Shown: positions 13,388-50,758 of the stretch, one piece after another
Numbering within the stretch: the first letter of the stretch is position 1
How the letters are laid out: each line of letters begins with the position of its first letter
NCBI GenBank assembly: GCA_004322015.1
Contig: SCQT01000131.1
Location: forward strand, 1 to 54,776
DNA: 54,776 bases
Source: Chitinophagaceae bacterium
Lineage (GTDB): Bacteria > Bacteroidota > Bacteroidia > Chitinophagales > Chitinophagaceae
Reading direction: 5' to 3'
The notes under the pieces: model-generated
Database searches by the model: none
Seen by the model: only the letters and a program-made list of their open reading frames with translations
Told to the model about the DNA's origin: nothing
Position numbers and translations under genes: made by a program

Positions 13388-13533
13388 TGAAATGATTTTG
13401 AATAATGAATAACGATTAACAAATGAAGAATGATGAAGTTGGGCTGCTACTTCTAAGATCGTAATTCATCGTTCTTTGTTCGATATTCTTTGCCTGATAT
13501 TCGATATTAGATTTTTTATTCAAAGATTTTCTC

Positions 13534-15573
13534 ATGTACCACTCATTAAAACCTCTTGCATTTATCCTCATTTTTGGAGCGATAGTTTCTTCTTGCAAAA
13601 ATAATCGCAGCTCAGTAAATAAAGATCCACTGGACCTTACGGGAATGGATACTTCTGTCCGTCCTCAGGATGATTTTTTTGATTATGCGAACGGCGATTG
13701 GCTGAAGAAAACAACAATACCCGCTTCCCTGCCTGCATGGGGCGGCATGCTCTCGCTGGCAGATAAATCAGTAGCGGATATGCGGATTGTATTAGATTCT
13801 GTGGCCAAAGATAAAAATATAATCCCCGGCAGTTACGCGCAAGAGGCAGGTGACCTGTACGCTGCAGGAATGGATTCTTCGCTGGTGGAGAAATTAGGCA
13901 TTTCTCCTGTTCAGGCGGATCTGGATCGTATCAATACTATTAAAAATACAGGAGACCTTATGAAGGAAGTGGCACTGGAATATTCTATGGGATTATCCCC
14001 TTTGTTTGATTTCGGTGTGAGTGGAGATGCGAAGAATAGCGCGGTAAATATCTGTTATTTTAATCAGGGTGGATTGGGATTGCCGAACAGGGATTATTAT
14101 TTTCAGAATGATTCCGCCGCCAAAAAAATAAGAGCGGGTTATACGCAATATATCACTAAGTTATTTGAATTAGCCGGAGAAGATTCAGTTGCTGCCATAA
14201 AAGTGGCGGCATCTGTATTGGCTACGGAAACAGCTTTGGCAAAGAATTCCAGGACACCTGTAGCCTTGCGTGATCCGCTCGCCAATTATCATAAAATGGC
14301 GGTGGCTTCCCTGGTAAAGTCCAATCCGAATGTCGGTTGGATTGATCTTTTAAGTGAGATGCAAATACATGCCGATACGGTAATTGTCGGACAACCGGAA
14401 TTCTATAAAAGCCTTAATAATTTAGTTAAATCTGTTCCCTTAAATGACTGGAAAAATTATTTAGAGTTCCATTTCATGGATCATTTTGCTCCCTATTTAA
14501 ATAACGCCTTTGTGCAGGCAAGATTTGATTATGCAAAATTATTAACCGGTCAACAGGCAATAGAGCCCCGGTGGAAAAGAATGTGTCGCATGATAGATGA
14601 CAATCTTAGCGATGCTTTAGGGCAGTTATACGTGCAACGGTTCTTTCCTCCCGAATCCAAAAAGAGGATGCTCGATTTAGTGAATAATCTGCAGGAAACC
14701 TTTGCTGAAAGAATAAAAGGTCTCGACTGGATGAGTGATTCCACCAAAACTAAGGCGCTGGAAAAACTGAATGCTATGGTGAAAAAGATCGGTTATCCGG
14801 ATAAATGGAAAGATTATTCCTCTGTGCATATTTCAAAAGATTCATTGGTTGCCGATCTCAGGAACTGCGGACATTTTGCTTATATGTATGCCATCGGCAA
14901 AATCGGCAAGCCTGTAGATAAGTCGGAATGGTATATGACTCCGCCAACGGTGGATGCTTATTATGATCCGACACAAAATGATATTAATTTTCCCGCCGGC
15001 ATCCTTCAGCCGCCATTCTTTTATAAAAATGGTGATGATGCCATCAATTACGGGGCTATTGGTATTGTGATAGGTCATGAAATGACACACGGATTCGATG
15101 ATGAAGGACGGCATTATGACTCCAATGGAAATCTGAAAGACTGGTGGACACCCCAAGATGCCAAACGATTTACACAACGCGCTGATTTAATTGTAAAGCA
15201 ATATGAGGGTTATACCGTATTGGATAGCTTGCATATAAATGGAAAATTAACCGAAGGTGAGAATATTGCGGATATCGGTGGTTCTATTATTGCGTATGCT
15301 GCTTTTCAAAGAACTCCGGAAGCGCATAAGGATACTTTGATAGATGGTTTTACTCCCGATCAACGCTTCTTTTTGTCATTAGCTGCAGGAGTGTGGCGCG
15401 TAAAATACCGCCCTGCAATTTTACGTACCATGTTGTTGAATAACCCACATTCACCCGCTAAGTACCGTGTCATTGGCCCCTTCTCTGATAATTCCGGATT
15501 CTATAAGGCATTTAACGTGAAACCCGGTGATAAAATGTATCGTCCGGATAGCATACGGGTAAGCCTGTGGTAG
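13534..15573 (+). CDS. M13-family (neprilysin-like) metallopeptidase lipoprotein, copy 2
   Basis: This is a tandem paralogue of the preceding gene with 679 residues and the same layout: lipoprotein signal peptide with lipobox IVSSC, N-terminal DFFDYANGDWLKKTTIP, zinc site His515-Glu516-x-x-His519 in VIGHEMTHGFDDEG, and Glu576 plus Asp580 in GENIADIGG. All catalytic residues are kept, so both copies should be active. The divergence between the copies is spread along the length, which suggests an old duplication and perhaps different peptide preferences. The stretch between the two genes (13388-13533) is AT-rich with degenerate direct repeats and no clear promoter; co-transcription is possible. 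Confidence 0.95.
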   Translation: MYHSLKPLAFILIFGAIVSSCKNNRSSVNKDPLDLTGMDTSVRPQDDFFDYANGDWLKKTTIPASLPAWGGMLSLADKSVADMRIVLDSVAKDKNIIPGSYAQEAGDLYAAGMDSSLVEKLGISPVQADLDRINTIKNTGDLMKEVALEYSMGLSPLFDFGVSGDAKNSAVNICYFNQGGLGLPNRDYYFQNDSAAKKIRAGYTQYITKLFELAGEDSVAAIKVAASVLATETALAKNSRTPVALRDPLANYHKMAVASLVKSNPNVGWIDLLSEMQIHADTVIVGQPEFYKSLNNLVKSVPLNDWKNYLEFHFMDHFAPYLNNAFVQARFDYAKLLTGQQAIEPRWKRMCRMIDDNLSDALGQLYVQRFFPPESKKRMLDLVNNLQETFAERIKGLDWMSDSTKTKALEKLNAMVKKIGYPDKWKDYSSVHISKDSLVADLRNCGHFAYMYAIGKIGKPVDKSEWYMTPPTVDAYYDPTQNDINFPAGILQPPFFYKNGDDAINYGAIGIVIGHEMTHGFDDEGRHYDSNGNLKDWWTPQDAKRFTQRADLIVKQYEGYTVLDSLHINGKLTEGENIADIGGSIIAYAAFQRTPEAHKDTLIDGFTPDQRFFLSLAAGVWRVKYRPAILRTMLLNNPHSPAKYRVIGPFSDNSGFYKAFNVKPGDKMYRPDSIRVSLW

Positions 15574-19000: not shown

Positions 19001-20319
19001 GTATATTTTTAAATTTAGCGAAGCGGAAAAACATTCAGTTAAGCATTCGGACGGAAGATGCTTTATTGAAAGAATTGCATAGTGGGAATAACTATTTTTA
19101 TTTTGATGAAGATGTGGTAGAAAAAGTATTGACAAATTTGATTTCCAATGCTTTTAAATTCACTTCTGAAGGTGGTGAAGTGACGGTTTCCTTAGAACTT
19201 GCCGGAGACAGGCAAAAGTATGTGGCCCTCAGGGTGAGCGATAATGGAGATGAAATACCTGCAGATAAATTGCCCTTTGTGTTTGACCGTTTTTATCAGG
19301 CGGATGATTCTTCAAACAGAAAATTTGAAGGGAGCGGCATAGGCCTTGCCCTGGTAAAAGAGTTGATAGAGCTTCATGGAGGAAGAGTGATGGCAGAGAG
19401 CAACCGCGAGAAAGGAACTGTTTTTTCCTGCTGGTTTCCTTTTAATAAAAGAGTGATTGCGGTGGATAAAACGCCACCTGAAGCAAAGCCGGATAAAATA
19501 AAAATGACTATTGAAACCGAGCCCGTTATGAAAGGTGAAGAGGTAGCCGCAAACGGCAGTCCTACCATATTAGTAATAGAAGATAATCAGGACGTCAGGA
19601 AGTACATTTGTGATAAACTGGGTGATGATTACCGGATCAGGGAATGTAAAGATGGAAAAGAAGGATTGTTGGCCACATTTGAAGAAATACCCGACCTGGT
19701 AATAAGTGATGTGATGATGCCGGAAATGGACGGGTTTGAGTTGTGTAAGAAATTGAAAACAGATAATCGCACCAGCCACATACCCATTATACTGCTGACT
19801 GCAAGAGCCGAAGATGCGGATAAAATGCAGGGATTAACTACAGGTGCAGATGCGTACATGATCAAGCCGTTTAATACCCATGAATTGCAAATACGGATTA
19901 CCAAGCTTATTGAGCTGAGGAATAAGATGCGCGCTAAATTCAGTGAAAAATTAGCGGTGAAACCCAGCGAGATAGCTGTTTCCTCCTTTGACAGAGATTT
20001 CATTTCCAAACTGGAAAGCACTGCGGAAAAACACATGGATGAAGTGGATTTCACCGTAGAACAATTGAGCAGGGAAATGAATATGAGTGTTTCACAATTA
20101 AACCGGAAATTGAAAGCGATTATTAACCAAACATCTTCACAGTATATCACTTCTCTCAGGATGCAACGGGCTATGGATTTGTTAAAAAATAACGGTGGCA
20201 ACATTGCAGAAATATCATGGAAAACAGGTTATGAAGATCCCGGATATTTCAGTAAAGTATTTAAAGCCTATTACGGATTTCTTCCCTCGGAAAAAGAGAG
20301 ATTCAAGCCTGATGCCTGA
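16090..20319 (+). CDS. Hybrid two-component system protein (sensor kinase, receiver and AraC-type DNA-binding domain in one chain)
   Basis: This is a one-protein signal-transduction system spanning the inner membrane. Order in 1409 residues: N-terminal signal anchor (about 13-32), periplasmic two-part beta-propeller (Reg_prop repeats such as GFMWFGTMDGLDRFDGYEF), a Y_Y_Y domain (about 735-820), a transmembrane helix (about 838-855), a histidine kinase with His896 in SHEFRTPLTL, an ATPase domain with the GSGIGLALVKELIELHGG box, a receiver with Asp1207 in VISDVMMPEMDG and Lys in YMIKPF, and a C-terminal AraC helix-turn-helix (SREMNMSVSQLNRKLKAI, GYEDPGYFSKVFKAYYG). Such proteins usually control polysaccharide loci, but no SusC/SusD pair is present. 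Its last codons overlap the first copy of a direct-repeat element that recurs before the following genes, so these are its probable targets. Confidence 0.95.
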   Translation: MFDQIFKGIRRRCLVAGVLFFIGSLWVLPVFGQQTNLRFTNYTINNGLSEGTISSITQDHQGFMWFGTMDGLDRFDGYEFMVFRHDPFDSTSLSDNSITKLFMDSRSQLWVGTLHGGLNLFDPLDNRFIHFLDPSTGNEKDNGNYIRAVAEDTKGNLWMGTFGNGIYEFKFSSKKMRGLYLPEKIIHYTKQTGNDNGLGSNFINYIFSDKEDRLWVSSSDGPLQEVDINSDHIYFSTPRFSDLNPEITIKDQTVRYDFKNVICSKLKKPHPYIVYDMYEDENRNLWMAGNGGLYILKAKSDTLINIQPTLGPIHVKNVTLSVTQGMKSHIFWLGIWAGLGIFNTKNFTLQLIGHREGDNTSLLGGVISCIYKDRSGCVWLGTNGYGVSKYTPRSSLFNNQIYYSQNRDTSTKSFSVISILDTKKFLLLGTYDSLWIVNKSTGILSMVSGGLTTDDMVPADSGKIWLAGVDGLGLYDPENGKSVLFSPHIVSNGKEDNRVIKIFNEGHGDLWLLTTLAFCRFDLKTKTFTKYFYRKILLNQAYNFHGDIYQDDEGNFWLGTEVGLLYFDARKKAFKQYVNDPKDTSSLSFNNIECIVPDPKIAAKYLWIGTQGGGLNKFNLITKKFTRFTIKDGLPNNTINGILADDRGNLWISTNNGLSRFNPVNQTFHNYDIHEGFSSNEFNHGAYYKNDEGQFFFGNISGFNSFYPDSIQDNPYLPPVVFTDFRLFNNSVRAGINNSPLKEPITQTHSITLPYNDNLISFQVASMDYTEPEKNLYSYLIKGLSDHWIDLGHDRLITLGNLLPGHYVLEVKATNSDGIWSGEPVLMNIRITPPWWKTWWAYLCYAVILFVLIMLIREEELIRIRLRNRLQLERFEADKLKDVDRMKSRFFANISHEFRTPLTLIIGPLKDMLQGGSQEKFKAIIPAMYRNSQRLLQLVNQLLDLSKLDSGYYKINTTRTDIVSYVKQVTSIFLNLAKRKNIQLSIRTEDALLKELHSGNNYFYFDEDVVEKVLTNLISNAFKFTSEGGEVTVSLELAGDRQKYVALRVSDNGDEIPADKLPFVFDRFYQADDSSNRKFEGSGIGLALVKELIELHGGRVMAESNREKGTVFSCWFPFNKRVIAVDKTPPEAKPDKIKMTIETEPVMKGEEVAANGSPTILVIEDNQDVRKYICDKLGDDYRIRECKDGKEGLLATFEEIPDLVISDVMMPEMDGFELCKKLKTDNRTSHIPIILLTARAEDADKMQGLTTGADAYMIKPFNTHELQIRITKLIELRNKMRAKFSEKLAVKPSEIAVSSFDRDFISKLESTAEKHMDEVDFTVEQLSREMNMSVSQLNRKLKAIINQTSSQYITSLRMQRAMDLLKNNGGNIAEISWKTGYEDPGYFSKVFKAYYGFLPSEKERFKPDA

Positions 20320-20349
20320 TTTTTCCTATTTTATGCCTGATTTTTCCTG
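20312..20349 (+). promoter_or_regulatory. Direct-repeat element, copies 1 and 2 (putative operator)
   Basis: ATGCCTGATTTTTCCTA (20312-20328) and ATGCCTGATTTTTCCTG (20333-20349) start exactly 21 bp apart, two helical turns. Copy 1 overlaps the last codons of the regulator gene. Direct repeats at this spacing suit AraC-type DNA-binding domains. There is no -7 box at the expected distance behind copy 2, so this pair may act from further upstream on the promoter at 20445. Confidence 0.75.
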
Positions 20350-20384
20350 TAAGAAAATGTTCAGGTAAGAGAGTAAGTAAAAAA

Positions 20385-20452
20385 TTGATTGAAAATTGCC
20401 GGAAAATGCTTGTTTTTTCCTAACACCTTGTCTCACCTCCACCTTATCTTTG
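20385..20452 (+). promoter_or_regulatory. Promoter of the PepSY-like gene with element copy 3
   Basis: Element copy 3, ATGCTTGTTTTTTCCTA, lies at 20406-20422, with a degenerate copy (TTGATTGAAAATTGCC) 21 bp upstream at 20385. A good -7 box, TATCTTTG, lies at 20445-20452. The distance from the end of the element to the -7 box (22 bp between) is identical to that in the promoter at 21206-21273. The ATG of the gene is at 20600, giving an untranslated leader of roughly 140 nt. Confidence 0.75.
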
Positions 20453-20599
20453 AGGCGTTATCTGATAAAGCCAGACTTTCGAAAGAATTCGGGCTATCCG
20501 GATGAAGAACCTCTCTGCCAGCAGGCCTGCGATCAAAAAGTTCTCAGTATAAATCCATTGTTCATTATAAATTTTTTATTCATCTCAAAATTCCCCAAA

Positions 20600-21088
20600 A
20601 TGAAAAAATCCATCGTAATGTCTGCAGCAGCCATCATATCGGCTATGACACTCAGCTTTACCGGTTCCTATGCTGCCAATGGCCGGAAAACAGCTCCTAC
20701 ACATTCTAAAGCTATGATTACCGTTCATCGGGATTTTCCACAAGTGCAAAATGTAACATGGCTTAAAGAAGGGAAAGATCAGATTGCCCTGTTTACTGTG
20801 GAAGACAGGCATATGCAATTCACCTTTAATGGAAACGGCAACTTGGAATCTACCATGATCACCACTTGTAATGCATGGTATCTGCCTTTTGAATTACAGA
20901 CTTCCTTAAGTAAAAAGTATCCGGGCTATGTTCCGAAAACTATTTCGGAATACATTGGTCCCAACGCTCATACTTTTTATGTTTTATTGAAGAAGAAGCA
21001 GGAAAAGGAGGTAACGTGGATGAGAGTGAAGGCTGATGAAGATGGAAATGCTATTGAAGTTATCCAGCAGTTGCATCAAAATGTCTGA
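20600..21088 (+). CDS. Small exported PepSY-like protein
   Basis: The protein of 162 residues begins with a clear signal peptide (MKKSIVMSAAAIISAMTLSF, cleavage after SYA) and is therefore periplasmic or secreted. The rest looks like the PepSY-like / beta-lactamase-inhibitor-like fold common in Bacteroidota: HRDFPQVQNVTWLKEG, FTVEDRHMQFTFNGNGNLES and LSKKYPGYVPKTISEY, giving two strand-helix units. Function in this family is unknown. I chose the ATG at 20600 because an earlier in-frame ATG at 20406 lies inside the promoter element and before the -7 box. It is the first gene after the hybrid regulator, carries the element in its promoter and ends at a terminator, so it is likely a strongly regulated single-gene transcript. 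Confidence 0.8.
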   Translation: MKKSIVMSAAAIISAMTLSFTGSYAANGRKTAPTHSKAMITVHRDFPQVQNVTWLKEGKDQIALFTVEDRHMQFTFNGNGNLESTMITTCNAWYLPFELQTSLSKKYPGYVPKTISEYIGPNAHTFYVLLKKKQEKEVTWMRVKADEDGNAIEVIQQLHQNV

Positions 21089-21121
21089 TAACGAACTTTA
21101 CCCATTGTTTGCTTTCTCACA

Positions 21122-21187
21122 AATCTCCCTCTCCGGAGATTGAGTTTTGGTTGATAAAAGGACCCCGCACTTATATGCGGGGTTTTT
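21122..21187 (+). terminator. Terminator after the PepSY-like gene
   Basis: A first hairpin AATCTCC / GGAGATT (21122-21141) is followed by a strong one, CCCCGCA / TGCGGGG (21163-21182), and five T. This ends the transcript just before element copies 4 and 5, so those belong to the next promoter. Confidence 0.85.
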
Positions 21188-21205
21188 CTGTTCATATCTT
21201 CAAAA

Positions 21206-21273
21206 ATGCCTGATTTTTCCTATAAAATGCCTGATTTTTCCTAACAACCCGTCCCTTGCGGCCGGTATATTTG
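21206..21273 (+). promoter_or_regulatory. Promoter of the membrane/cAMP gene cluster with element copies 4 and 5
   Basis: Two identical copies of ATGCCTGATTTTTCCTA at 21206-21222 and 21227-21243 start 21 bp apart. The -7 box TATATTTG is at 21266-21273, with 22 bp between the second copy and the box, exactly as in the promoter at 20385-20452; in both, the element continues into CCTAACA. There is no recognisable -33 box, which fits an activator-dependent promoter. The first intact gene downstream is the FAD oxidoreductase at 21749. Confidence 0.8.
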
Positions 21274-21350: not shown

Positions 21351-21737
21351 ATGTGCCGTTATTTTCCCAGGCTGACATCTTTCAGTTCTATTTTACGGAC
21401 ATTCCTTTTTTTAATAACTAATTTTCTTAAAAAGGGTAATAATGCCTTAGCGGCTGCCATTGAAATGCAACAAGCGGTTCGGGAGGTCAACCGGCAACGG
21501 GGGACCTTTCCCGTCCGGATCAGTATTGGAATGCATACCGGTCTGCTCACTATGGGAATTACAGGCGATGAAAACCGCCCGGATGCCTGCACCATTTCCG
21601 ATACAGTCAATACTGCTTCCGGATTAGAGAGCCTGACCAGGCATTTTAAAGCGGATGTCCTGATCAGTGAAAACTGCCTCAGCAAATCAATGATAAAGGG
21701 AAATTTTATTCGAACTAATAATTCTTCATCCAAATAA
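21351..21737 (+). pseudogene. Remnant of a class III nucleotide cyclase
   Basis: Residues about 30-110 of this 128-residue frame clearly derive from the C-terminal half of a class III adenylate/guanylate cyclase domain: AAAIEMQQAVREVN, VRISIGMHTGLLTMGITGDE and ATISDT-like CTISDTVNTASGLESLTRHF. The front half of the domain, with both metal-binding aspartates, is missing, and the Arg normally found in NTASRLE is Gly (Ser90-Gly91). The first 30 residues and the Ser-rich end do not look like the family. The product cannot be an active cyclase. It is of a different cyclase subgroup from the two intact cyclases downstream. It lies just after the regulated promoter, so it is probably transcribed as leader of the FAD gene, 11 bp away. 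Confidence 0.65.
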
Positions 21738-21748
21738 ACTAAAATTTT

Positions 21749-23488
21749 ATGAATCCGAGCGTCATTATTATGGGAGGCGGCGTAGCTGGAATGAGTGCCG
21801 CGCATGAATTGGTGGAGAGAGGGTTTAAGGTGACCGTTTTTGAGAAACAAAAGGAAATTCCCGGCGGGAAAGCCCGTTCTGTTCCTGTACCTGATTCTGC
21901 AACTGATGGAAGATTGCCACTGCCGGGCGAGCATGGTTTTCGCTTTTTCCCCGGTTTTTACAGGCATGTAACCGATACAATGAAACGCATTCCCTACCAG
22001 AATCCGGTAACGAAGCGATTTAATAAAACGGGTGTTTATGATAATCTGGTTGATTGCCCTAAAATGATGCTGGCACGTTTTGGCAAGGCTCCTCTCGCAA
22101 TGTTTGATCATTTTCCCAAATCCTTGGAGGACGTAAATAAAATGCTGGCGATAAAATATGGAGATAGCGGGCTTAGCGAGGAAGAAAAGCAACTGATTGC
22201 GATGAAAATATGGCAATTAATGACCAGTTGTGAAGATCGCAGGTTGAACGAATATGAACATGTAGGGTGGTGGGAATTTACTGATGCCAACAATCAAAGC
22301 AAAAGCTATCAGATGCTCTTTGCACAGGGATTAACCAGAACACTGGTGGCCGCTAAGGCAAAAGCAGCCAGTACAAAAACGGGGGGAACCATCTTTTTGC
22401 AATTATTATTTGATATGATTAATCCGGAAAAGCAGACCGATCGGGTATTATGCGGACCGACGAATGAGGTGTGGCTGCTCCCATGGCTGGAATACCTGCA
22501 GAATAAAGGAGTGGATTACAGGTTTGGCTGTGAGGTGGTAGAAATGTCTTGTGAAAAACGCAGGCTTTCAGGGGTCTGGGTTTCCAAAGATGGGGAGGTA
22601 AAGGAAAAATTTACCGCCGATTATTACGTCTGTGCTGTGCCGGTAGAAAGGGCGGCAAAGCTCATTTCCAAAGAGATTTTAGATATTGATCCCTGTCTGG
22701 AGGGAATTCAAAAACTGGCTCCGAGTGTCGCATGGATGAATGGTATCCAATTTTACCTGAAAAGAGAATTAGATATTGTACAAGGACATATCATCTTGTC
22801 TGATTCCCCCTGGGCGCTGACTGCCATTTCACAAATACAGTTTTGGAAGGATTTTGATATAACTAAATACGGGAACGGGGAAGTAAAAGCTATTATATCG
22901 GTAGATGTTTCTGATTGGGACACTCCCGGCGTAATTCAGTATAAAGATGAAAACGGGAAAGTATATTATAAAGCGGCGAAAGATTGTACAAAGCAGGAAG
23001 TCTTTAATGATATTTGGGAACAGATCAAGATGAGCTTTAATGTGGATGGGGCTAAAGTTTTTGAAGATGAAGATATTTATATGATTCATTTGGATGGAGA
23101 TATTCAATTTGGATCTAACAGGGTGGTAGGGGATGAAGAACCCTTGCTTGTCAATCAAACCTATACCTGGGATCTGCGTCCCGAACCTTATACAGATCTG
23201 CCTAATTTGTTTTTCGCCTCTGATTATGTACAGACTTATACTGATCTGGCGACGATGGAAGGGGCTAATGAAGCTGCCAGACGGGCGGTTAACTGCATCA
23301 TAGACGAAAGTGGTGTGGATGTCCCTAAATGTAAGATTTGGAAATTGCGTGAACCGGATCTTCTGTTGTATTATAAAGCTTTGGACAATAAACGGTATGA
23401 CGAGGGTCTTCCATGGAAATATGACAGGCCCTTTTTTGCAAGTATTTTAAGTTGGATTTATAAGGTGATGACAAAGGTTATAAAATAA
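21749..23488 (+). CDS. FAD-dependent oxidoreductase of the phytoene desaturase / hydroxysqualene dehydroxylase type
   Basis: The 579-residue protein is a flavin amine-oxidase-superfamily enzyme. The FAD-binding Rossmann motif is at the N-terminus (IIMGGGVAGMSAAHEL, with Glu in VFEKQKEIPGGKA), and the C-terminal FAD motif is seen as NLFFASDYVQTYTDLATMEGANEAAR near residue 490-515. The loop GEHGFRFFPGFYRHVTDTM and the overall length resemble carotenoid desaturases, CrtU-like proteins and hydroxysqualene dehydroxylases, so a hydrophobic isoprenoid substrate is likely but not proven. The C-terminal hydrophobic segment FASILSWIYKVMTKVIK may anchor it to the membrane. It is followed after 11 bp by a polytopic membrane protein and leads a tightly packed run. 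Confidence 0.8.
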   Translation: MNPSVIIMGGGVAGMSAAHELVERGFKVTVFEKQKEIPGGKARSVPVPDSATDGRLPLPGEHGFRFFPGFYRHVTDTMKRIPYQNPVTKRFNKTGVYDNLVDCPKMMLARFGKAPLAMFDHFPKSLEDVNKMLAIKYGDSGLSEEEKQLIAMKIWQLMTSCEDRRLNEYEHVGWWEFTDANNQSKSYQMLFAQGLTRTLVAAKAKAASTKTGGTIFLQLLFDMINPEKQTDRVLCGPTNEVWLLPWLEYLQNKGVDYRFGCEVVEMSCEKRRLSGVWVSKDGEVKEKFTADYYVCAVPVERAAKLISKEILDIDPCLEGIQKLAPSVAWMNGIQFYLKRELDIVQGHIILSDSPWALTAISQIQFWKDFDITKYGNGEVKAIISVDVSDWDTPGVIQYKDENGKVYYKAAKDCTKQEVFNDIWEQIKMSFNVDGAKVFEDEDIYMIHLDGDIQFGSNRVVGDEEPLLVNQTYTWDLRPEPYTDLPNLFFASDYVQTYTDLATMEGANEAARRAVNCIIDESGVDVPKCKIWKLREPDLLLYYKALDNKRYDEGLPWKYDRPFFASILSWIYKVMTKVIK

Positions 23489-23499
23489 TATTTTTCTCT

Positions 23500-24183
23500 A
23501 TGCCATTAGCTATTGCCCATACTATCAGAAAGATCGAATTTTGGTTCATGCTGGCTACCTTAGCCATTGTGCTTGCAGTGGGCTTTATAAGTGATCTGTT
23601 TAGCCTGGGCTGGAAGTCTGGATGGGCGTTGGCTGTAGGGATGTATTTTATTATCCTTGTTTTTGCTTTTATCACTGCTGATAACTTTTTGAAAAAGCTG
23701 TTGATCTTCGGACTCACAGCCGGCATTGTGGAACTGTTGGCCGATGCCTGGCTGGTGCATTTTACGGGTACACTGGTATATACCCGGGGAGAGCCGATGA
23801 TTGCCCTTTCTCCACAATACATGCCATTCGCGTGGGCAGTCATTCTGATACAGGTTGGGTATATCGGATGGCTAATCGGTGGAATAGAGAAGATCTCTGT
23901 TACGATATTAATCACGGCTGTTTTGGGCTTCGCAGTGATACCTTTATTTGAGTTTTGGGCTAAGGGTGCAGGATGGTGGTATTATAGGAATACACCTTTG
24001 TTTATGGAAACTACTCCTTATTTTATTGCATTCGGCGAAGCATTATTGTGCGCCGTACTTCCCTTATTTTTTAAGATTATTATTAAAAGAGGAGTGCTGT
24101 TTGCAATCTTGTTTGGGGTTTTAGAAGGCTTGTGGATATGGGTTGCTTACTTTTTGTTTTATAAGCTATTTCAATTTTTATAA
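23500..24183 (+). CDS. Polytopic membrane protein of unknown function
   Basis: The 227-residue protein has about seven predicted membrane helices and no signal peptide. Conserved-looking polar residues sit at membrane borders: ELLADAWLVHFTGTLVY, LSPQYMPFAWAV, FEFWAKGAGWWYYRN and GEALLCAVLP. The acidic residues buried between aromatic ones recall small integral-membrane isoprenoid enzymes such as CruF/lycopene-cyclase-like proteins, which also tend to sit next to FAD desaturases; this is a resemblance in style, not an assignment. It is 11 bp behind the FAD enzyme and 9 bp ahead of the first cyclase, so it is co-transcribed with both. A partner or second enzyme of the FAD oxidoreductase is my best guess. 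Confidence 0.75.
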   Translation: MPLAIAHTIRKIEFWFMLATLAIVLAVGFISDLFSLGWKSGWALAVGMYFIILVFAFITADNFLKKLLIFGLTAGIVELLADAWLVHFTGTLVYTRGEPMIALSPQYMPFAWAVILIQVGYIGWLIGGIEKISVTILITAVLGFAVIPLFEFWAKGAGWWYYRNTPLFMETTPYFIAFGEALLCAVLPLFFKIIIKRGVLFAILFGVLEGLWIWVAYFLFYKLFQFL

Positions 24184-24192
24184 AAACAGTCC

Positions 24193-25455
24193 ATGTTTAG
24201 CAAATTGGTTATGTATTTTGTTCCGTCTGGTATAGACAGGGATCCGGAAGATTTAAGAAAGTATAAGCTTATTATTTCTACTATCATCATTACTTTTCTT
24301 TTCTTGCTGGAATATTTAGTATTATGCTGGATTATCAGGTTCCCCATAGCTATATTAGTACATGCTTTGGTCATGCTGTGGTTCCTTCCCGTACTCTTTA
24401 TGATCCGGAATGGAATGAACAAAACGACTGCATCCAATCTCTATATCCTTGCCGGTGTCATAGATATTAATGTATCCATCTACTTTTCCGGTGGGATGTA
24501 TTCTCCGGTGATCCCTTTTCTTGCTTCTTCACCTATTGTGGCATTACTGCTTGCCGGGAAACCCAGTGGTTTTTTCTGGATGTCGGTAAACACGCTATGC
24601 GCAGTTGCTTTTTGCATCATGAGTTATTTTCACTTTCCTTTTCCGGATGATTATGATTTAAACAGAAAAACGGTTTTTTTTCTATTATGTTTTATCGGCA
24701 TCATCCAGCTTATTTTTATCCTTTCACTCGTTTTTGAAAATGGTAAAAATGCGGCATTGAATAAGCTTGCAGAACGGAATAAGATGATCGTGGCTGAAAA
24801 ACAGAAATCTGAAATGTTATTATTAAATATTCTGCCGGAAGAGATTTCCAACGAATTGAAACAAACCGGCAAAACCAGGGCGCACAGTTATGATATGGCT
24901 ACCGTGATGTTCTCTGATTTTGTAAATTTTACCAGTATAGGAGAAAAGCTGACACCTGAAGAATTAGTTTCTGCCATTGCAGAGTATTTTGAGACCTTCG
25001 ATCATATTATAGAAAGATATGGGATAGAGAAAATTAAAACGGTAGGCGACGCCTATATCTGCGCATCGGGATTGCCTATCCCCACCACCGATAATGCACT
25101 TATTATGATTCGGGTAGCTTTTGATTTTTTAAAGGCTATGGAAGAATTGAATGAAAAAAGGCATATCAGGGGACATGTCGTTTTCAACATTCGGATTGGT
25201 ATCAATACCGGTCCTTTAGTCGCAGGAGTAGTAGGTATTAAAAAGTTTGCCTATGATATTTGGGGAGATACGGTCAATACGGCGGCCAGACTTCAGGAGA
25301 AAGGCGAAGCGGGGAGGATCAATATTTCAGGCAGTACCTATGATCTGATTAAACAAATATTTCCCTGTACTTATCGTGGCAAAATAGAAGCAAAAAATAA
25401 GGGGCAGATTGATATGTATTTTGTCGAAGGACTGCGGCAGAATGTATTGGTTTAG
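24193..25455 (+). CDS. Membrane-bound class III adenylate cyclase, copy 1
   Basis: The 420-residue protein predicts synthesis of cAMP from ATP at the inner membrane. About six N-terminal helices (residues 25-185) are followed by a short linker helix (NAALNKLAERNKMIVAEKQK, ILPEEISNEL) and a class III cyclase domain. Metal-binding Asp242 (FSDFVNFT) and Asp286 (TVGDAY), the adenine-selecting Lys/Asp pair (KIKTVGD and AYDIWGD) and the transition-state Asn/Arg (NTAARLQ) are all present, so it should be active and make cAMP rather than cGMP. The membrane part resembles sensory domains and has no match I can name. From the linker on, the sequence is nearly identical to that of the second cyclase at 26224. 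Confidence 0.93.
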   Translation: MFSKLVMYFVPSGIDRDPEDLRKYKLIISTIIITFLFLLEYLVLCWIIRFPIAILVHALVMLWFLPVLFMIRNGMNKTTASNLYILAGVIDINVSIYFSGGMYSPVIPFLASSPIVALLLAGKPSGFFWMSVNTLCAVAFCIMSYFHFPFPDDYDLNRKTVFFLLCFIGIIQLIFILSLVFENGKNAALNKLAERNKMIVAEKQKSEMLLLNILPEEISNELKQTGKTRAHSYDMATVMFSDFVNFTSIGEKLTPEELVSAIAEYFETFDHIIERYGIEKIKTVGDAYICASGLPIPTTDNALIMIRVAFDFLKAMEELNEKRHIRGHVVFNIRIGINTGPLVAGVVGIKKFAYDIWGDTVNTAARLQEKGEAGRINISGSTYDLIKQIFPCTYRGKIEAKNKGQIDMYFVEGLRQNVLV

Positions 25456-25553
25456 TGATAAGGTGTAAGATTGAACAAATGCTTTTGAGTCCAATGGACA
25501 TTAAGATGGTGGATGGGATCATTCCATGAAATATTAAAATCTTCTTTTCTGAT

Positions 25554-26240
25554 ATGACCATTTTCGAATATTTCAGATCACCGCATCCTTGGTTTGATAC
25601 CGGTAACTATGCGCCTTACCAGATAGTTTTATTCCTTACAGGCGCTCTGTTATGGGTGGGAGTTTATGTTGATACGATCAAAAGTATTACAAAAAAACGC
25701 ACACTCAATATTCCTTTAATAGCTATTTGCCTTAATTTTGGCTTTGAGGTGACCACTTCATTCACTTTCGTTCCTGATATGGGTAATGTTTTGGTCATGG
25801 CTTACTGGGCGTGGATGATACTGGATATCTTTATTGTTATTTCCATGTTTAAATATGGATACAAGCAGATCAGAATTAACTATATTCTTAAAAATCTGAC
25901 ATCATTCCTGATATTGGGGCTTTTAGCCGGCTTTTTTACCCAATTCTTTTTTATTCACAGGTATGATCTGCCGATGGCGCCCCTGGCAGGGTATATGATC
26001 AATTTGGTCATGTCTGTTTGTTTTATCTATCTGGTTTTTATTCCCGGTTATGAAGGTAATTCATTAGTGACGGCCTGGGCAAAATTTCTTGGTACAGGAC
26101 TCATCAGCATTATGTTTTTTACTAAATATCCGGACAATAACTTTCTGACATCTTTATATGTCTTTACCGCAATTTTTGACATCTCGTATATTTATTTGTT
26201 ATATAAAGTAAAAATTACCTTGCGTGAAAAAGCGCATTAA
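25554..26240 (+). CDS. Pyr4-like transmembrane terpene cyclase
   Basis: The 228-residue protein has seven predicted membrane helices. It resembles the transmembrane terpene cyclases known from fungal meroterpenoid pathways (Pyr4) and from bacteria (DmtA1): the motif NIPLIAICLNFGFEVTTSF puts Glu65 where Pyr4 has its essential Glu63, MAYWAWMILDIFIVISMFKYG matches the next conserved helix, and Asp209 in the last helix (FTAIFDISYIYLLY) corresponds to the essential Asp218. Such enzymes protonate an epoxide or double bond of a prenyl chain inside the membrane and start ring closure. It lies 98 bp behind cyclase 1, and its last 17 bp overlap the start of cyclase 2. The family call is from motif and topology only. 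Confidence 0.7.
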   Translation: MTIFEYFRSPHPWFDTGNYAPYQIVLFLTGALLWVGVYVDTIKSITKKRTLNIPLIAICLNFGFEVTTSFTFVPDMGNVLVMAYWAWMILDIFIVISMFKYGYKQIRINYILKNLTSFLILGLLAGFFTQFFFIHRYDLPMAPLAGYMINLVMSVCFIYLVFIPGYEGNSLVTAWAKFLGTGLISIMFFTKYPDNNFLTSLYVFTAIFDISYIYLLYKVKITLREKAH

Positions 26241-27501
26241 CAGCGTTCAGGATTATTTTTTACCTGTAAGGGCTTTTAAAAATAATAACAGACTTTACAG
26301 GTATAAGATGTTTATTATGATTTCTTTCGTTACTGCTTTATATGCTGCTGTCTTTTTTCCCCTCTCCTATCTGATTCACTATGATGTAGCTTTTGTACCC
26401 ATTTACATTACAGTCGTTTTATGCGTAGCCTATCCTTTTCTAATGAAAAAAGGAGTCAGACTGGTTATTTTGGTAAATGTTTATTTAGCCGGCACCTGCG
26501 GCCTTATGGTATGGTTGATGCTGACTACCGGCGGATTGGTACGGTGCCCGGAAAACCCGGTCTTTCTGGCTGTTTTACCTGTTATTGCTCTATTGTGCAT
26601 TAACAGGAAAGCTGCTGTCATCTGGCTGATCATTACATTGGGGATACTTTGTGCTTTTGGCATAGCCACCATTTACGGATATCAATTCCCAATGGCTATG
26701 GAGAAGAAATTTGTCCCCGTATTTGAAACATTTTCATTCCCTGGATTAGCCGTTTTGCTCTTTGTGTTTGTCGTGATATTTGATAATGCTAAGAATGCCG
26801 CTCTGGGAAAATTGGAAGAGCAGAATAAATTAATAGAAATAGAGAAGGAGAAATCGGAGACCTTGTTACTAAATATTCTTCCGGAAGAGATATCCAATGA
26901 ATTAAAGCAGACGGGCAAAACCAGTGCACATAGCTATGATATGGCTACTGTGATGTTTTCTGATTTTGTAAACTTTACCAGTATAGGAGAGAAACTGACA
27001 CCGGAAGAATTAGTTTCAGCAATAGCCGAATATTTTGAAACCTTTGATCGGATTATAGAAAGATACGGAATAGAAAAGATTAAAACAGTGGGAGATGCCT
27101 ATATCTGTGCGGCAGGATTACCTATTCCTACTACGGACAACGCCTTGATCATGATCCAGGTGGCCTTTGATTTTCTGAAAGCATTAGATGAGTTAAATGA
27201 AAAAAGAAATTTCAGGAGAAATGTTGTTTTCAATATACGGATTGGCATCAATACGGGCCCCCTGGTGGCCGGCGTGGTAGGGATTAAGAAATTTGCTTAT
27301 GATATTTGGGGGGATACCGTTAATACTGCAGCCAGGCTACAGGAGAGGGGAGAGACTGGCAGGATTAATATTTCCGGCAGCACTTATGATTTAATAAAGC
27401 AGACTTATCCTTGCACCTATCGTGGAAAGATTGCTGCAAAAAATAAGGGACAGATTGACATGTATTTTGTTGAAAATATTCCCCAGGGTGTTTTAAGCTA
27501 A
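26224..27501 (+). CDS. Membrane-bound class III adenylate cyclase, copy 2
   Basis: The 425-residue protein has the same layout as copy 1: about six membrane helices (30-200), a linker helix (LEEQNKLIEIEKEKSE) and the cyclase domain with Asp247 (FSDFVNFT), Asp291 (TVGDAY), the adenine-type Lys/Asp pair and NTAARLQ. The catalytic domain differs from copy 1 at only a few positions, while the membrane domain is clearly different, so the two probably answer different signals with the same output. The GTG start at 26224 overlaps the terpene-cyclase-like gene by 17 bp, which points to translational coupling; the next in-frame ATG would remove the first cytoplasmic stretch. The next gene starts 13 bp downstream. 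Confidence 0.93.
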   Translation: MKKRINSVQDYFLPVRAFKNNNRLYRYKMFIMISFVTALYAAVFFPLSYLIHYDVAFVPIYITVVLCVAYPFLMKKGVRLVILVNVYLAGTCGLMVWLMLTTGGLVRCPENPVFLAVLPVIALLCINRKAAVIWLIITLGILCAFGIATIYGYQFPMAMEKKFVPVFETFSFPGLAVLLFVFVVIFDNAKNAALGKLEEQNKLIEIEKEKSETLLLNILPEEISNELKQTGKTSAHSYDMATVMFSDFVNFTSIGEKLTPEELVSAIAEYFETFDRIIERYGIEKIKTVGDAYICAAGLPIPTTDNALIMIQVAFDFLKALDELNEKRNFRRNVVFNIRIGINTGPLVAGVVGIKKFAYDIWGDTVNTAARLQERGETGRINISGSTYDLIKQTYPCTYRGKIAAKNKGQIDMYFVENIPQGVLS

Positions 27502-27514
27502 AAAATAAAATGAG

Positions 27515-30256
27515 ATGTCACAGGCGCTGTTAAGATTATTAAATATCAGGTCATACGAATGGAAGCTGGTAAGGCAAATGTTTATCGTACAGTTTTTCCT
27601 TGTAATCGGGACATCTTTTCTTTTTATTTCTGCCGATGCTATCTTTCTTTCGCAATATCATATTATTGAATTACCTAAAGCATTTCTCATCGCCGGAATT
27701 TTCCTTCTTTTGTTCAACCGGATTTACAGCCGAATAGAACATAAGATCTCTACAAAGAGACTTCTGTTTACTGTCATCATATTCAGTATTGTGCTCACCT
27801 TATTGATTCGCATCGGGTTTATGTTCCCTGAGCTCGGGTGGATGCCGTATATACTCCTGATAGGTTATAACATTATATATTTACTTACTGCTCTGATCTT
27901 TTGGGGAGTAGCCGCCATGCTGTTTAATGTGAGGGAAAGTAAGCGATTGTTTACCATTATCGGCGCCGGGGATCTGCCTGCTAAATTATTGGGCTATTTG
28001 TTAGTGCCATTAACAGGAAAGTACATCGGGTTAAATAATACCATTTGGCTGGCAATTCTTGCCTTTATCATTGCCATACCTTTTGCATGGAAAATGTTTA
28101 ATATGAGACAGGTGGCTTTACTTAACAGAGAACAGGAAGAACATAAGATCAATCGTTTTGTCAATAGTAATGTGAGAAAGGTAAAAAAGGTTTTCGGGTC
28201 TGATTTAATTATGGCTATTTCCATCCTCTCTTTAATTACTTTTACGGCCATCATATTAATTGATTTTACTTTTCTTGCAGAGGCACAGGTAAAATACCGC
28301 ACTGATATTGCCCTGGCCTCTTTCCTGGGTATATTCTTCGCAGCCGGCAGAATACTGGCAATTATACTAAAATTTACGTTAAGTAGCCGGATCATTGCCC
28401 GTATGGGATTGGTGTGGTCCTTGTTGTTGTCACCTGTGAGCTTACTGATTTTAATCGTCATTATTTTCTCCATTATTAAAGCGGATAATACCTTAGAACC
28501 TTTTATCTATTTAGTGGGTATCATGGCGTTGATGACTGAAATCCTGAAGTCTCTTATTCAGGAACCTGTGTTCCTTGTTTTATTTCAACCTTTAAAACAA
28601 TCTCTGCGCTTGAAAGGTCATGTGATCGCGAAAGGGTATATGCTGGGGACAGCTATGATACTGACGGGCGGCTGGTTGATATGGTATTTATGGCATACTG
28701 CTTATCTGTCCCTCGCCGTCTTCTGCTCTGTGCTTACATGGATTCTTGCAGTGTGGATCCTGAGTATTTTTTTAGTGAAAAAGGAATATTTAAAAACGCT
28801 GTTTGAGGCTATCAAAGGCGGCTTTTTCAGAGGGAATGAATTATATCTTCAGGACAGGTCCATCAGGGATCTCCTGGTGCAAAAGACGGAAAGTAAGAAA
28901 CCCCTGGAAGTGATCACCGCCCTGGATTTATTGGAAAGGGAGGATCATGAAAATATCGGCAAATTATTGGCCGCACAATTGAAAAAGAAGGATCCGTTGA
29001 TCTTAAAATATGCACTTGCAAGAATAGCTGAAAAAAAATACAGGCCGGCTTTAGACGCTGTGAAACAGTTATTGCAAAAAGGAGAAACCCGGATCCGGCC
29101 GGAGTGTATCCAGGCAATAAGTTTATTAAATGAGGACGATTTGTCTGCCTTAGGACCTTTCATGGACAATGAGGATGAACCTTGTCGGCTGGCAGCCATA
29201 GCGGGAATGCTGAAAAGCAACGATCTGGAACTATTTGTGCTGGCAGGTCAGCGATTGCTGCAACTGGCCCGTTCTGCTGAGGCTTCTGACCGGGCCGCTG
29301 CTGCCAGGATTATTAAGGATACGGGTGAGGTTAAATTTCATAAAGTACTGGCAGATCTTTTAAATGATACGGATATACAAGTGCAAAAACAAGCTATTAC
29401 CGCGGCCGGAGTTATTCATTGTGATGCGGTTATTCCGATATTGTTCACGAAGCTGAGGCAAAGAGAGACGCACAGTGAAGCTGTTTCAGCGCTGATAGCA
29501 TATGGTGATAAAGTATTGGAAAATTATGGCGGGAGTATAAAGGAATCCACTGAACTATTGCCTCAGTTTATTGCGATTGCGGGAGGTATTGCAAATGATA
29601 AAGCAGCAGATTTTTTAATTTGCAAATTGACAGATGTTCCTTCATTCAGGACTATTATTTTAGAACAATTATGGAAAATAAGATTTTCGGCTCCACCTGT
29701 CAAAAGGAATTTGTTGCTGCAGATCATTAATGAAGAGCTGCAAAGATCGGAGGAAACCTTGGGTTTTATATATCATCTTCATGCCGGAAAACATCATCCC
29801 GAACTCTATCATGCCTTGCAAATGGAATTAGGCATACGGATCAATAATATATTGAAGATATTGGGATTTTTATACGAGAGAAGCAAGATGAGTGATGCGT
29901 TACATGCGGTGACGACAAATGATCGTCGCAAAATTTTCAACGCCTTGGAAATGCTGGAAATGATGATCCCGAGGAATATTTTTAAACGGCTGAATACATT
30001 GATAGAAGAAAGCTTGCATCCCGGTGCAAAAGTCAAACAACCCAAAGAACGCATCAATATTCAGGCTATCATAGGAGCTATCCTGCAATCTGCTTCAGGC
30101 AGCTTTAATTCATGGACCAGATCTGTTGCTATAGCTTCTATTCCAAAGCTTAAAGATAAATCTATGTTTCTCTTGTTAAAACATTTGTCCCTGATTGAAT
30201 CTGACCCTATTGTGGAAGAAACCATGCAGTATGTTATTTTGCACGAACCGGTGTAA
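27515..30256 (+). CDS. ATP/ADP-carrier-like (NTT) membrane protein with a HEAT-repeat C-terminus
   Basis: The 913-residue protein has two halves. Residues about 15-425 contain eleven or twelve membrane helices in the arrangement of the nucleotide-transporter (NTT, Npt) and related major-facilitator proteins; the segment FGSDLIMAISILSLITFTAIILIDFTFL marks the second half. Residues about 445-913 are soluble alpha-helical repeats of HEAT type (for example LNDTDIQVQKQAITAAGVI and NEDEPCRLAAIAGML). Related proteins elsewhere carry NTT, HEAT and a cyclic-nucleotide-binding domain in one chain; here the binding domain appears as a separate gene directly downstream. In free-living bacteria these proteins are not proven nucleotide exchangers, so transport of ATP/ADP is not claimed. 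It is 13 bp behind cyclase 2. Confidence 0.78.
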   Translation: MSQALLRLLNIRSYEWKLVRQMFIVQFFLVIGTSFLFISADAIFLSQYHIIELPKAFLIAGIFLLLFNRIYSRIEHKISTKRLLFTVIIFSIVLTLLIRIGFMFPELGWMPYILLIGYNIIYLLTALIFWGVAAMLFNVRESKRLFTIIGAGDLPAKLLGYLLVPLTGKYIGLNNTIWLAILAFIIAIPFAWKMFNMRQVALLNREQEEHKINRFVNSNVRKVKKVFGSDLIMAISILSLITFTAIILIDFTFLAEAQVKYRTDIALASFLGIFFAAGRILAIILKFTLSSRIIARMGLVWSLLLSPVSLLILIVIIFSIIKADNTLEPFIYLVGIMALMTEILKSLIQEPVFLVLFQPLKQSLRLKGHVIAKGYMLGTAMILTGGWLIWYLWHTAYLSLAVFCSVLTWILAVWILSIFLVKKEYLKTLFEAIKGGFFRGNELYLQDRSIRDLLVQKTESKKPLEVITALDLLEREDHENIGKLLAAQLKKKDPLILKYALARIAEKKYRPALDAVKQLLQKGETRIRPECIQAISLLNEDDLSALGPFMDNEDEPCRLAAIAGMLKSNDLELFVLAGQRLLQLARSAEASDRAAAARIIKDTGEVKFHKVLADLLNDTDIQVQKQAITAAGVIHCDAVIPILFTKLRQRETHSEAVSALIAYGDKVLENYGGSIKESTELLPQFIAIAGGIANDKAADFLICKLTDVPSFRTIILEQLWKIRFSAPPVKRNLLLQIINEELQRSEETLGFIYHLHAGKHHPELYHALQMELGIRINNILKILGFLYERSKMSDALHAVTTNDRRKIFNALEMLEMMIPRNIFKRLNTLIEESLHPGAKVKQPKERINIQAIIGAILQSASGSFNSWTRSVAIASIPKLKDKSMFLLLKHLSLIESDPIVEETMQYVILHEPV

Positions 30257-50431: not shown

Positions 50432-50567
50432 TGGAAAAACAATTAAGAGGTTAATGAATTTATTTATTCATAACCCCGGAAAATTAACAGCCATGCAGTA
50501 AAATAAATGGGAAATCCCCTCTGCATGCATGCTTCTGATCCCGGAAGCTATGGCATTTAAAACGGCT

Positions 50568-50750
50568 GAGGCAGGTCTTCTGACTTACTCCTTTTTCCAG
50601 CTTGCCTTCCCGTCTCTATGGAGGCAGAGACAGTGGCTGAGGTTTGCCAAAAAAATAATGAAGATCACAGCATCGGGTAATGTCCGGGGTTTACACCCGG
50701 TTCCCTTTTCATCTTTCCTGCCAACTGCAGGATAAGAACCTTAACCGGCG
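50568..50750 (-). ncRNA. Cobalamin riboswitch controlling the BtuB-like receptor
   Basis: Read on the minus strand, the leader contains GGGTGTAAACCCCGG (50699-50685 region), the core AGCCACTG at 50638-50631 and the B12 box AAGTCAGAAGACCTGCC at 50586-50570, in the order and spacing of the AdoCbl riboswitch class. A -7 box, TACCTTTG at 50758-50751, sits just before it, and the BtuB-like ATG is at 50431. Binding of the cofactor should shut off expression of the receptor. Confidence 0.92.
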
Positions 50751-50758
50751 CAAAGGTA
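50751..50758 (-). promoter_or_regulatory. -7 box of the cobalamin riboswitch transcript
   Basis: TACCTTTG on the minus strand directly upstream of the riboswitch; it sets the 5' end of the leader near 50745. Confidence 0.6.

Follow-up and report, generated by a model that had tools for sequence, protein, structure and literature searches.

Tandem 21-bp-spaced repeats as candidate operators of a hybrid two-component system in a Chitinophagaceae bacterium

At araI, AraC occupies two direct half-sites about two helical turns apart, beside the core promoter. Bacteroides thetaiotaomicron encodes 36 hybrid two-component systems (HTCSs), and the motifs predicted for 16 of them were all direct repeats whose tandem sites lie 21 bp apart on average (Ravcheev et al. 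2013, PMC3878776); the HTCS_Man operator comprises two 16-bp sites with a 5-bp spacer, and HTCS dimers were inferred to bind one DNA face, two helical turns apart (PMC3878776). Here we analyze a 54,776-nucleotide stretch of contig SCQT01000131.1 from a Chitinophagaceae bacterium (the window), in which a 17-bp element recurs in 21-bp-spaced pairs at the end of an HTCS gene and at two putative promoters downstream of it, P1 and P2. From sequence comparisons we consider it highly probable (roughly 0.86) that an HTCS uses these repeats as tandem operator half-sites, activating from them two adjacent gene sets and at least one gene located elsewhere. This reading is based on the spacing of the repeats, their fixed 22-bp distance from a promoter box, their conservation in a second species, and their near-restriction to the two genomes where the HTCS was found. 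As in AraC/XylS-type operators, the half-sites are direct, lie about two turns apart and adjoin the core promoter; unlike AraC, a cytoplasmic sugar-binding regulator, the regulator here is a membrane-anchored hybrid kinase.

The original prediction, made from the letters of the window, regarded the geometry as that of an activator with AraC-type DNA-binding domains, and 21-bp direct repeats are indeed the published form of HTCS operators (PMC3878776). The likeness to the operators of B. thetaiotaomicron, which were compared in geometry, lies in direct half-sites ~21 bp apart near HTCS-linked genes; related paralogues with similar motifs, and distant genes within regulons, are also common to that species and the present case (PMC3878776). 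Unlike in B. thetaiotaomicron (PMC3878776), a pair here spans the stop codon of the regulator gene, and neither SusC/SusD nor a glycosidase is found among the scanned targets. The fixed 22-bp offset to the -7 box was measured at the present sites. Operators of this kind have been described already; what the locus appears to add is the operator sequence, a small regulon spanning two genomes, the apparent sharing of one operator by two paralogues, and targets outside sugar uptake.

The repeat pairs and their promoter register

Copies of the 17-mer ATGCCTGATTTTTCCTA start at 20312 (0 mismatches), 20333 (1), 20406 (2), 21206 (0), and 21227 (0), as had been claimed. At up to three mismatches the window contains 5 matches, where 0.41 are expected, and 0 of 100 shuffles attained 5. 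The pairs 20312/20333 and 21206/21227 both have the predicted start-to-start spacing of 21 bp, and the regulator gene does end in copy 1, its TGA occupying positions 20317-20319. Each proximal copy is followed at exactly 22 bp by a -7 box, TATCTTTG at 20445 and TATATTTG at 21266, which likewise agrees with the original prediction. For the 20312/20333 pair a -7 box at +22 was looked for and is absent; this pair is therefore regarded as a second, auxiliary pair lying upstream, not as a promoter core.

Comparison within the genus covered two genomes, that of the window (G000, 4.5 Mb) and that of a second species (G001), ~9.5 Mb together. This comparison decides how the proposed degenerate partner at 20385, 21 bp upstream of the 20406 copy, is to be read. 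From the window sequence alone the partner is chance-like: it shares 8 of 17 positions with its own proximal copy and has 9 mismatches to the 17-mer, the best other offset within 45 bp having 8. However, the distal halves at P1 of G001, at G000:C262, and at G001:C406 are, like 20385, of the type WTG....AAAATTNCC and likewise have an offset of 21 bp, so the partner is credible, but only by comparison.

The box register was measured in five stretches. TAnnTTTG lies exactly 22 bp past the 17-mer at 7/7 promoter sites, while its background in the same five stretches is 4.3e-4 per position over both strands. Outside the window the boxes are TATTTTTG at P1 and TAAATTTG at P2 of G001, TATCTTTG at C103, TAACTTTG at G001:C406, and TAAATTTG at C262. 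TTTTCCT occurs 69 times in nine genus stretches; the box follows at +22 in 6 cases, each of them one of these promoter sites. Four of the sites (C103, G001 P1, G001 P2, and G001:C406) were recognised without using the box; both window boxes came from the original prediction, and C262 emerged first from a box-containing pattern and was recovered without the box too.

Promoters of sigma-ABfr consist of TAnnTTTG at -7 plus TTTG near -33 (PMC7366714). The present sites resemble them in the -7 box, found at all seven, and differ from them upstream: inspection by eye of the seven promoter sites, P1 and P2 included, revealed no TTTG at the -33 position. This is consistent with the earlier statement that no -33 box is needed, and it suggests that these promoters would be weak without an activator. 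A scan for sigma-70 consensus promoters gave 40 sites, compared with 34.9 in shuffles, this consensus being uninformative in Bacteroidota.

Specificity of the pair and the wider putative regulon

Exact 17-mers are confined, genome-wide, to the three in the window. When up to three mismatches were allowed, the lone 17-mer had 50 matches in the whole genome and the reversed pattern 31, and the single 17-mer was rejected as a marker. A pair pattern was generalised from the known sites with the -7 box ignored, and its reversal served as control; at the same threshold it matched 5 times in G000 and 3 times in G001, 8 in total, and the control 0 times. The lone 17-mer barely exceeds its control, and specificity resides in the pair. 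The founding sites match such patterns by construction, so that the new information consists of the lack of other matches and of the sites at C262 and G001:C406. A motif scan had been suggested in the original prediction, and with 8 matches in the two genus genomes the pair does not turn up at many unrelated promoters. The proximal half combined with the -7 box gave six matches at 0-1 mismatch, none at 2, and 36 at 3; its reversed control at up to three mismatches gave 24 in G000 and 26 in G001. Near-matches with two mismatches elsewhere in the window genome (C49, C162, and C175) were not counted as sites, as their 21-bp partners are at chance level (at least 10 mismatches).

At up to two mismatches, a scan of 195 genomes of the family found the pair pattern 4 times in G000, 2 times in G001, and 1 time in the other 193 genomes (control, 0). 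Full-length matches to the regulator of at least 56% identity were found only in G000 and G001 among 59 relatives searched, 36 of them from the family; of the remaining family genomes only G149 was searched for the regulator. Pair and regulator therefore occur together in both genus members, with a pair match in just 1/193 other family genomes, as the original reading anticipated. That single match, in G149, was treated as chance, which is not proven: it has two mismatches, and CATCTTTG is one base out of register. The best match in G149 to the receiver/DNA-binding part of the regulator is just 34%. The G149:C46 match (L132, 1501-1540) lies between a short divergent PepSY-like gene and a gene resembling a pyridoxal phosphate enzyme, both assigned by eye.

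In G001, the regulator orthologue (C344, 63% identical) is followed by a PepSY-like gene 46% identical to that of the window. The repeats there comprise a copy over the regulator stop, a pair before the PepSY-like gene, and a pair after the hairpin region and before the operon. Pairs are accordingly conserved near HTCS-linked genes, in the form described by Ravcheev et al., at P1 and P2 of G001:C344 and at G001:C406. The window genome carries in addition a paralogue of the regulator (C103, 57% identical), with a pair directly past its stop codon. Two genes follow this pair, one DUF4440-like with a start resembling a signal peptide, the next encoding a cytochrome c; the G001 orthologues of these targets have Pfam matches, that to DUF4440 scoring 21.7 bits, under the Pfam cut-off of 25.2. 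The G001:C406 pair precedes the orthologue of this DUF4440-like target, with the HTCS on another contig. It was recognised via the pair pattern and is also among the 3-mismatch matches of the proximal half plus -7 box pattern; by eye, the C103 and C406 neighbourhoods share epimerase-like and cytochrome genes. A further pair, at G000:C262, precedes a distant alpha/beta-hydrolase gene with a signal-peptide-like start. A search of G001 at E 1e-30 found no counterpart of this hydrolase, and that member of the regulon is therefore not common to both genomes. A PepSY paralogue (G000:C1) has no pair in its 10.5-kb contig and, by the pair test, is thus not a member.

To place the spacing among other HTCSs, 106 loci were scanned (26 from relatives and 80 of 590, the regulator's own clade left out), using 15-mers located 16-24 bp upstream of 1137 TAnnTTTG boxes, with scrambled boxes (745-1434 each) for comparison; matches were counted irrespective of their position relative to the HTCS gene. 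At up to three mismatches 21 bp was the commonest spacing, with 6 matches, the remaining 30 spacings totalling 13; at 21 bp, five scrambled boxes gave 0, 2, 0, 0, and 0. The 21-bp geometry thus looks general among HTCS loci, on modest statistics. In a Bacteroidota genome HTCSs may number in the dozens, with 36 in B. thetaiotaomicron (PMC3878776), and many lack known targets. In the present case, the pair pattern, whose reversed control had no match, found a small two-genome regulon; this includes one remote gene as well as an orthologue that lies apart from its regulator. Since the 21-bp spacing is also seen in other HTCS loci, the rule may help to predict the targets of orphan HTCSs.

The regulator, a putative mechanism and rival explanations

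The window protein has the domains of an HTCS by Pfam, namely a periplasmic-type sensor, HisKA, HATPase_c, a receiver, and an AraC-type HTH. Each of the four HTCSs compared has the H-box, N-box, G2 box, receiver Asp motif, and T(S/C)HIP. Inhibition between receiver and DNA-binding domain in HTCSs involves an S/CHIP-DK motif, the DK residues of which belong to the DNA-binding domain (PMC11253607); all four HTCSs here resemble those proteins in carrying T(S/C)HIP. Over the last 112 residues, the number of positions identical to the window HTCS is 76 in the G001 orthologue, 67 in the C103 paralogue, and 57 in C420, the G001 orthologue of that paralogue. A third HTCS of G000 (C156) and a related HTCS of G001 (C486) have no such pair in the 18 and 20 kb examined.

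A mechanism can be outlined on this basis. The propeller/Y_Y_Y part would sense a periplasmic ligand, whereupon the HTCS would phosphorylate its own receiver and phosphorylation would free the DNA-binding domain. Two protomers might then bind next to each other on the same face of the DNA, separated by two helical turns, with the proximal one covering the would-be -33 region and recruiting RNA polymerase to a promoter that has a -7 box only. P1 would drive the DUF2874/PepSY-like protein and P2 the FAD (flavin adenine dinucleotide) oxidoreductase/cyclase/HEAT operon, while the pair over the regulator stop codon may act as an auxiliary upstream site serving P1. The regulon would extend to the C262 alpha/beta-hydrolase and to the DUF4440-like and cytochrome c genes beside the C103 paralogue.

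Several observations weigh against the operator reading or against its simplest form. With two genus genomes compared, conservation is judged from a single pair of species and a single pair of paralogues. Around C420 no repeat pair was seen over the 9 kb examined, ~1.25 kb of which lie downstream, and a HTCS of G029 with a receiver/DNA-binding part 62% identical to that of the window has no such pair in its 4.6-kb locus. No HTCS was found among open reading frames (ORFs) of at least 120 aa around the C262 site, and a separate sensor kinase with an NtrC-type response regulator, both assigned by eye, lies 2.5-5 kb upstream of it. The excess at 21 bp in the other HTCS loci is less marked when up to four mismatches are allowed (10, versus 1, 3, 6, 1, and 2 with scrambled boxes). 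Finally, the G1 box of the window HTCS (19240-19260) reads DNGDEIP, whereas three close relatives have DNGAGIP, DNGTGIP, and DTGTGIP; this change from G to E at a normally conserved position could impair the kinase.

The claim that the window regulator directly controls both promoters is supported by the comparison across genomes, with the qualification that a paralogous HTCS adjoins the same motif. It is possible, though we think it doubtful, that the C103 paralogue is the main protein to bind the pairs, or that both paralogues do so interchangeably, such that P1 and P2 would not be controlled solely or mainly by the window regulator. The 67 identical positions of the C-terminal comparison, the presence of the same motif beside both paralogues, and the altered G1 box all point that way; however, P1 and P2 remain beside an HTCS of the window type (C109-type) in both species, and the half-sites of the window and C103 loci differ slightly. 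Further removed is the idea that some other DNA-binding protein (a separate AraC, LuxR, or NtrC-type regulator, or another) uses the sites, the adjacency of the HTCS being incidental. The kinase and regulator genes near C262, where no HTCS was seen among the ORFs examined, and the lack of an adjoining site at the C420 HTCS would fit it. Yet the pairs adjoin two paralogous HTCSs, one of these adjacencies recurs in the second species, a 21-bp pitch has been published for HTCS operators (PMC3878776), and the pair matches only once in the other 193 family genomes, and we consider such an explanation improbable.

Two other explanations concern the nature of the sites. The proximal copy abuts the core promoter, where a repressor could block a constitutive promoter in an AraC-like manner. 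We judge repression to be equally improbable, because the promoters, with no -33 TTTG seen by eye at seven sites, look weak without an activator, and because BT1754, an HTCS, is termed an activator of its target genes (PMC11501099). Three copies (20312, 21206, and 21227) have the same sequence, and copy 2 at 20333 resembles a 21-bp tandem gain relative to G001, which might suggest a small mobile or tandemly duplicated element, with the near-identical 20312 and 21206 pairs arising by recent duplication. This is very unlikely: the ~9.5 Mb contain 8 pairs, and in 7 the -7 box follows at precisely +22, the distal halves have diverged while their spacing was kept, the positions of orthologous sites are kept in G001, and the two-genome pair scan did not find many dispersed copies outside promoters. 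Operators for an HTCS thus remain our preferred interpretation of the repeats. A broader and rather unlikely extension, offered tentatively, is that in this genus the HTCS clade left polysaccharide utilisation to become a two-paralogue regulator of envelope and second-messenger functions, with one operator code and possible cross-activation; the window paralogue, given its altered ATP-binding box, might then be phosphorylated in trans by its sister, and the cyclase operon could turn an outside signal into cyclic nucleotide signalling.

Target genes and neighbouring features

The features of the window are collected in Table 1.

Table 1. Coordinates of the regulator, the candidate operators, and the putative targets in the window.
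Feature	Position	Strand	Remarks
HTCS, 1409 aa	16090..20319	+	Pfam: Reg_prop propeller, Y_Y_Y, HisKA, HATPase_c, receiver, AraC-type HTH_18
Repeat copy 1, candidate distal half of upstream auxiliary pair	20312..20328	+	Spans regulator stop codon; one homologous copy over stop of G001 orthologue
Repeat copy 2, candidate second half of upstream auxiliary pair	20333..20349	+	21 bp after copy 1; gap here in G001
P1 distal half-site (putative), degenerate, TTGATTGAAAATTGCCG	20385..20401	+	AAAATTNCC type
P1 proximal half-site (putative)	20406..20422	+	
P1 -7 box TATCTTTG	20445..20452	+	22 bp past proximal half-site
P1 target: DUF2874/PepSY-like (BLIP-like fold) protein, 162 aa	20600..21088	+	Signal-peptide-like start, by eye
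Hairpin, conserved GAGTTTTGGTTGATAAAA, GC-rich hairpin, TTTTT	21122..21190	+	By eye; conserved in G001
P2 distal half-site (putative)	21206..21222	+	Conserved in G001
P2 proximal half-site (putative)	21227..21243	+	Conserved in G001
P2 -7 box TATATTTG	21266..21273	+	22 bp past proximal half-site
128-aa ORF, class III cyclase fragment	21351..21737	+	Profile positions 79-145 of 183
P2 operon: FAD amine-oxidase-like, DUF6989, class III cyclase, Pyr4-like membrane protein, class III cyclase, HEAT-repeat	21749..30256	+	

The predicted targets are secreted proteins and a cyclase operon, suggesting HTCS control beyond sugar foraging. No SusC, SusD, or glycosidase emerged when Pfam was run on the window targets, on the C262 hydrolase, on the gene that comes first after P2 in G001, and on the G001 orthologues of both C103 targets, and the locus is therefore not classed as a polysaccharide utilisation locus. 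Targets lacking these proteins, and two paralogous regulators apparently sharing one operator, are unusual features of the system.

No Pfam or NCBIfam family matches the PepSY-like protein. Its AlphaFold model (mean confidence score, pLDDT, 85.9) has as best fold matches in the PDB 4k61, 4hbr, 4ipb, and 4fr9, with E values of 5e-8 to 1e-6 and TM scores of 0.55-0.58 by query length. Since these are DUF2874/BLIP-like periplasmic proteins of Bacteroides, the label PepSY-like seems reasonable for the modelled fold. Within the P2 operon the intergenic gaps are 9-13 bases, apart from 98 before 25554 and an overlap at 26224-26240. The gene order amine oxidase, membrane protein, cyclase, HEAT-type is found in G001:C344 as well, as judged by eye from translations. 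A unit of membrane protein plus class III cyclase is doubled at 23500-27501 (DUF6989 with cyclase, and Pyr4-like with cyclase) and by eye occurs once in G001:C344. The 128-aa ORF, as a fragment of a cyclase, is probably a remnant and not a working gene; in G001 its place after P2 is taken by an S10 serine carboxypeptidase, homologues of which (40% and 35%) lie elsewhere in G000.

The hairpin region with its TTTTT is a probable terminator separating P1 from P2; in the hairpin listing the first hairpin is on the + strand and the second appears only in the minus-strand reading. The same 3' element (hairpin, exact GAGTTTTGGTTGATAAAA, GC-rich hairpin, T run) occurs at window 21108-21190, G000:C1 ~8138, G001:C344 ~12600, and G000:C270 ~1020; three of these four places follow a PepSY-like gene. 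Across 117 family genomes, exact 18-mers of the element number 3 in G000 and 1 in G001, the remaining 115 having none, and the window copy has no Rfam match at the gathering threshold.

Immediately upstream of the regulator, two M13-family peptidase genes lie in tandem (11351-15573); in G001 the gene upstream of the regulator is Obg-like by eye. The HTCS of G029 (G029:C3; L056, 208-3700) has a multi-helix sensor that differs by eye, and the gene after it resembles, again by eye, L089 2547-2993, near the C103 paralogue. At 50553-50758, on the minus strand, the window contains a cobalamin riboswitch (Rfam RF00174, 100.5 bits).

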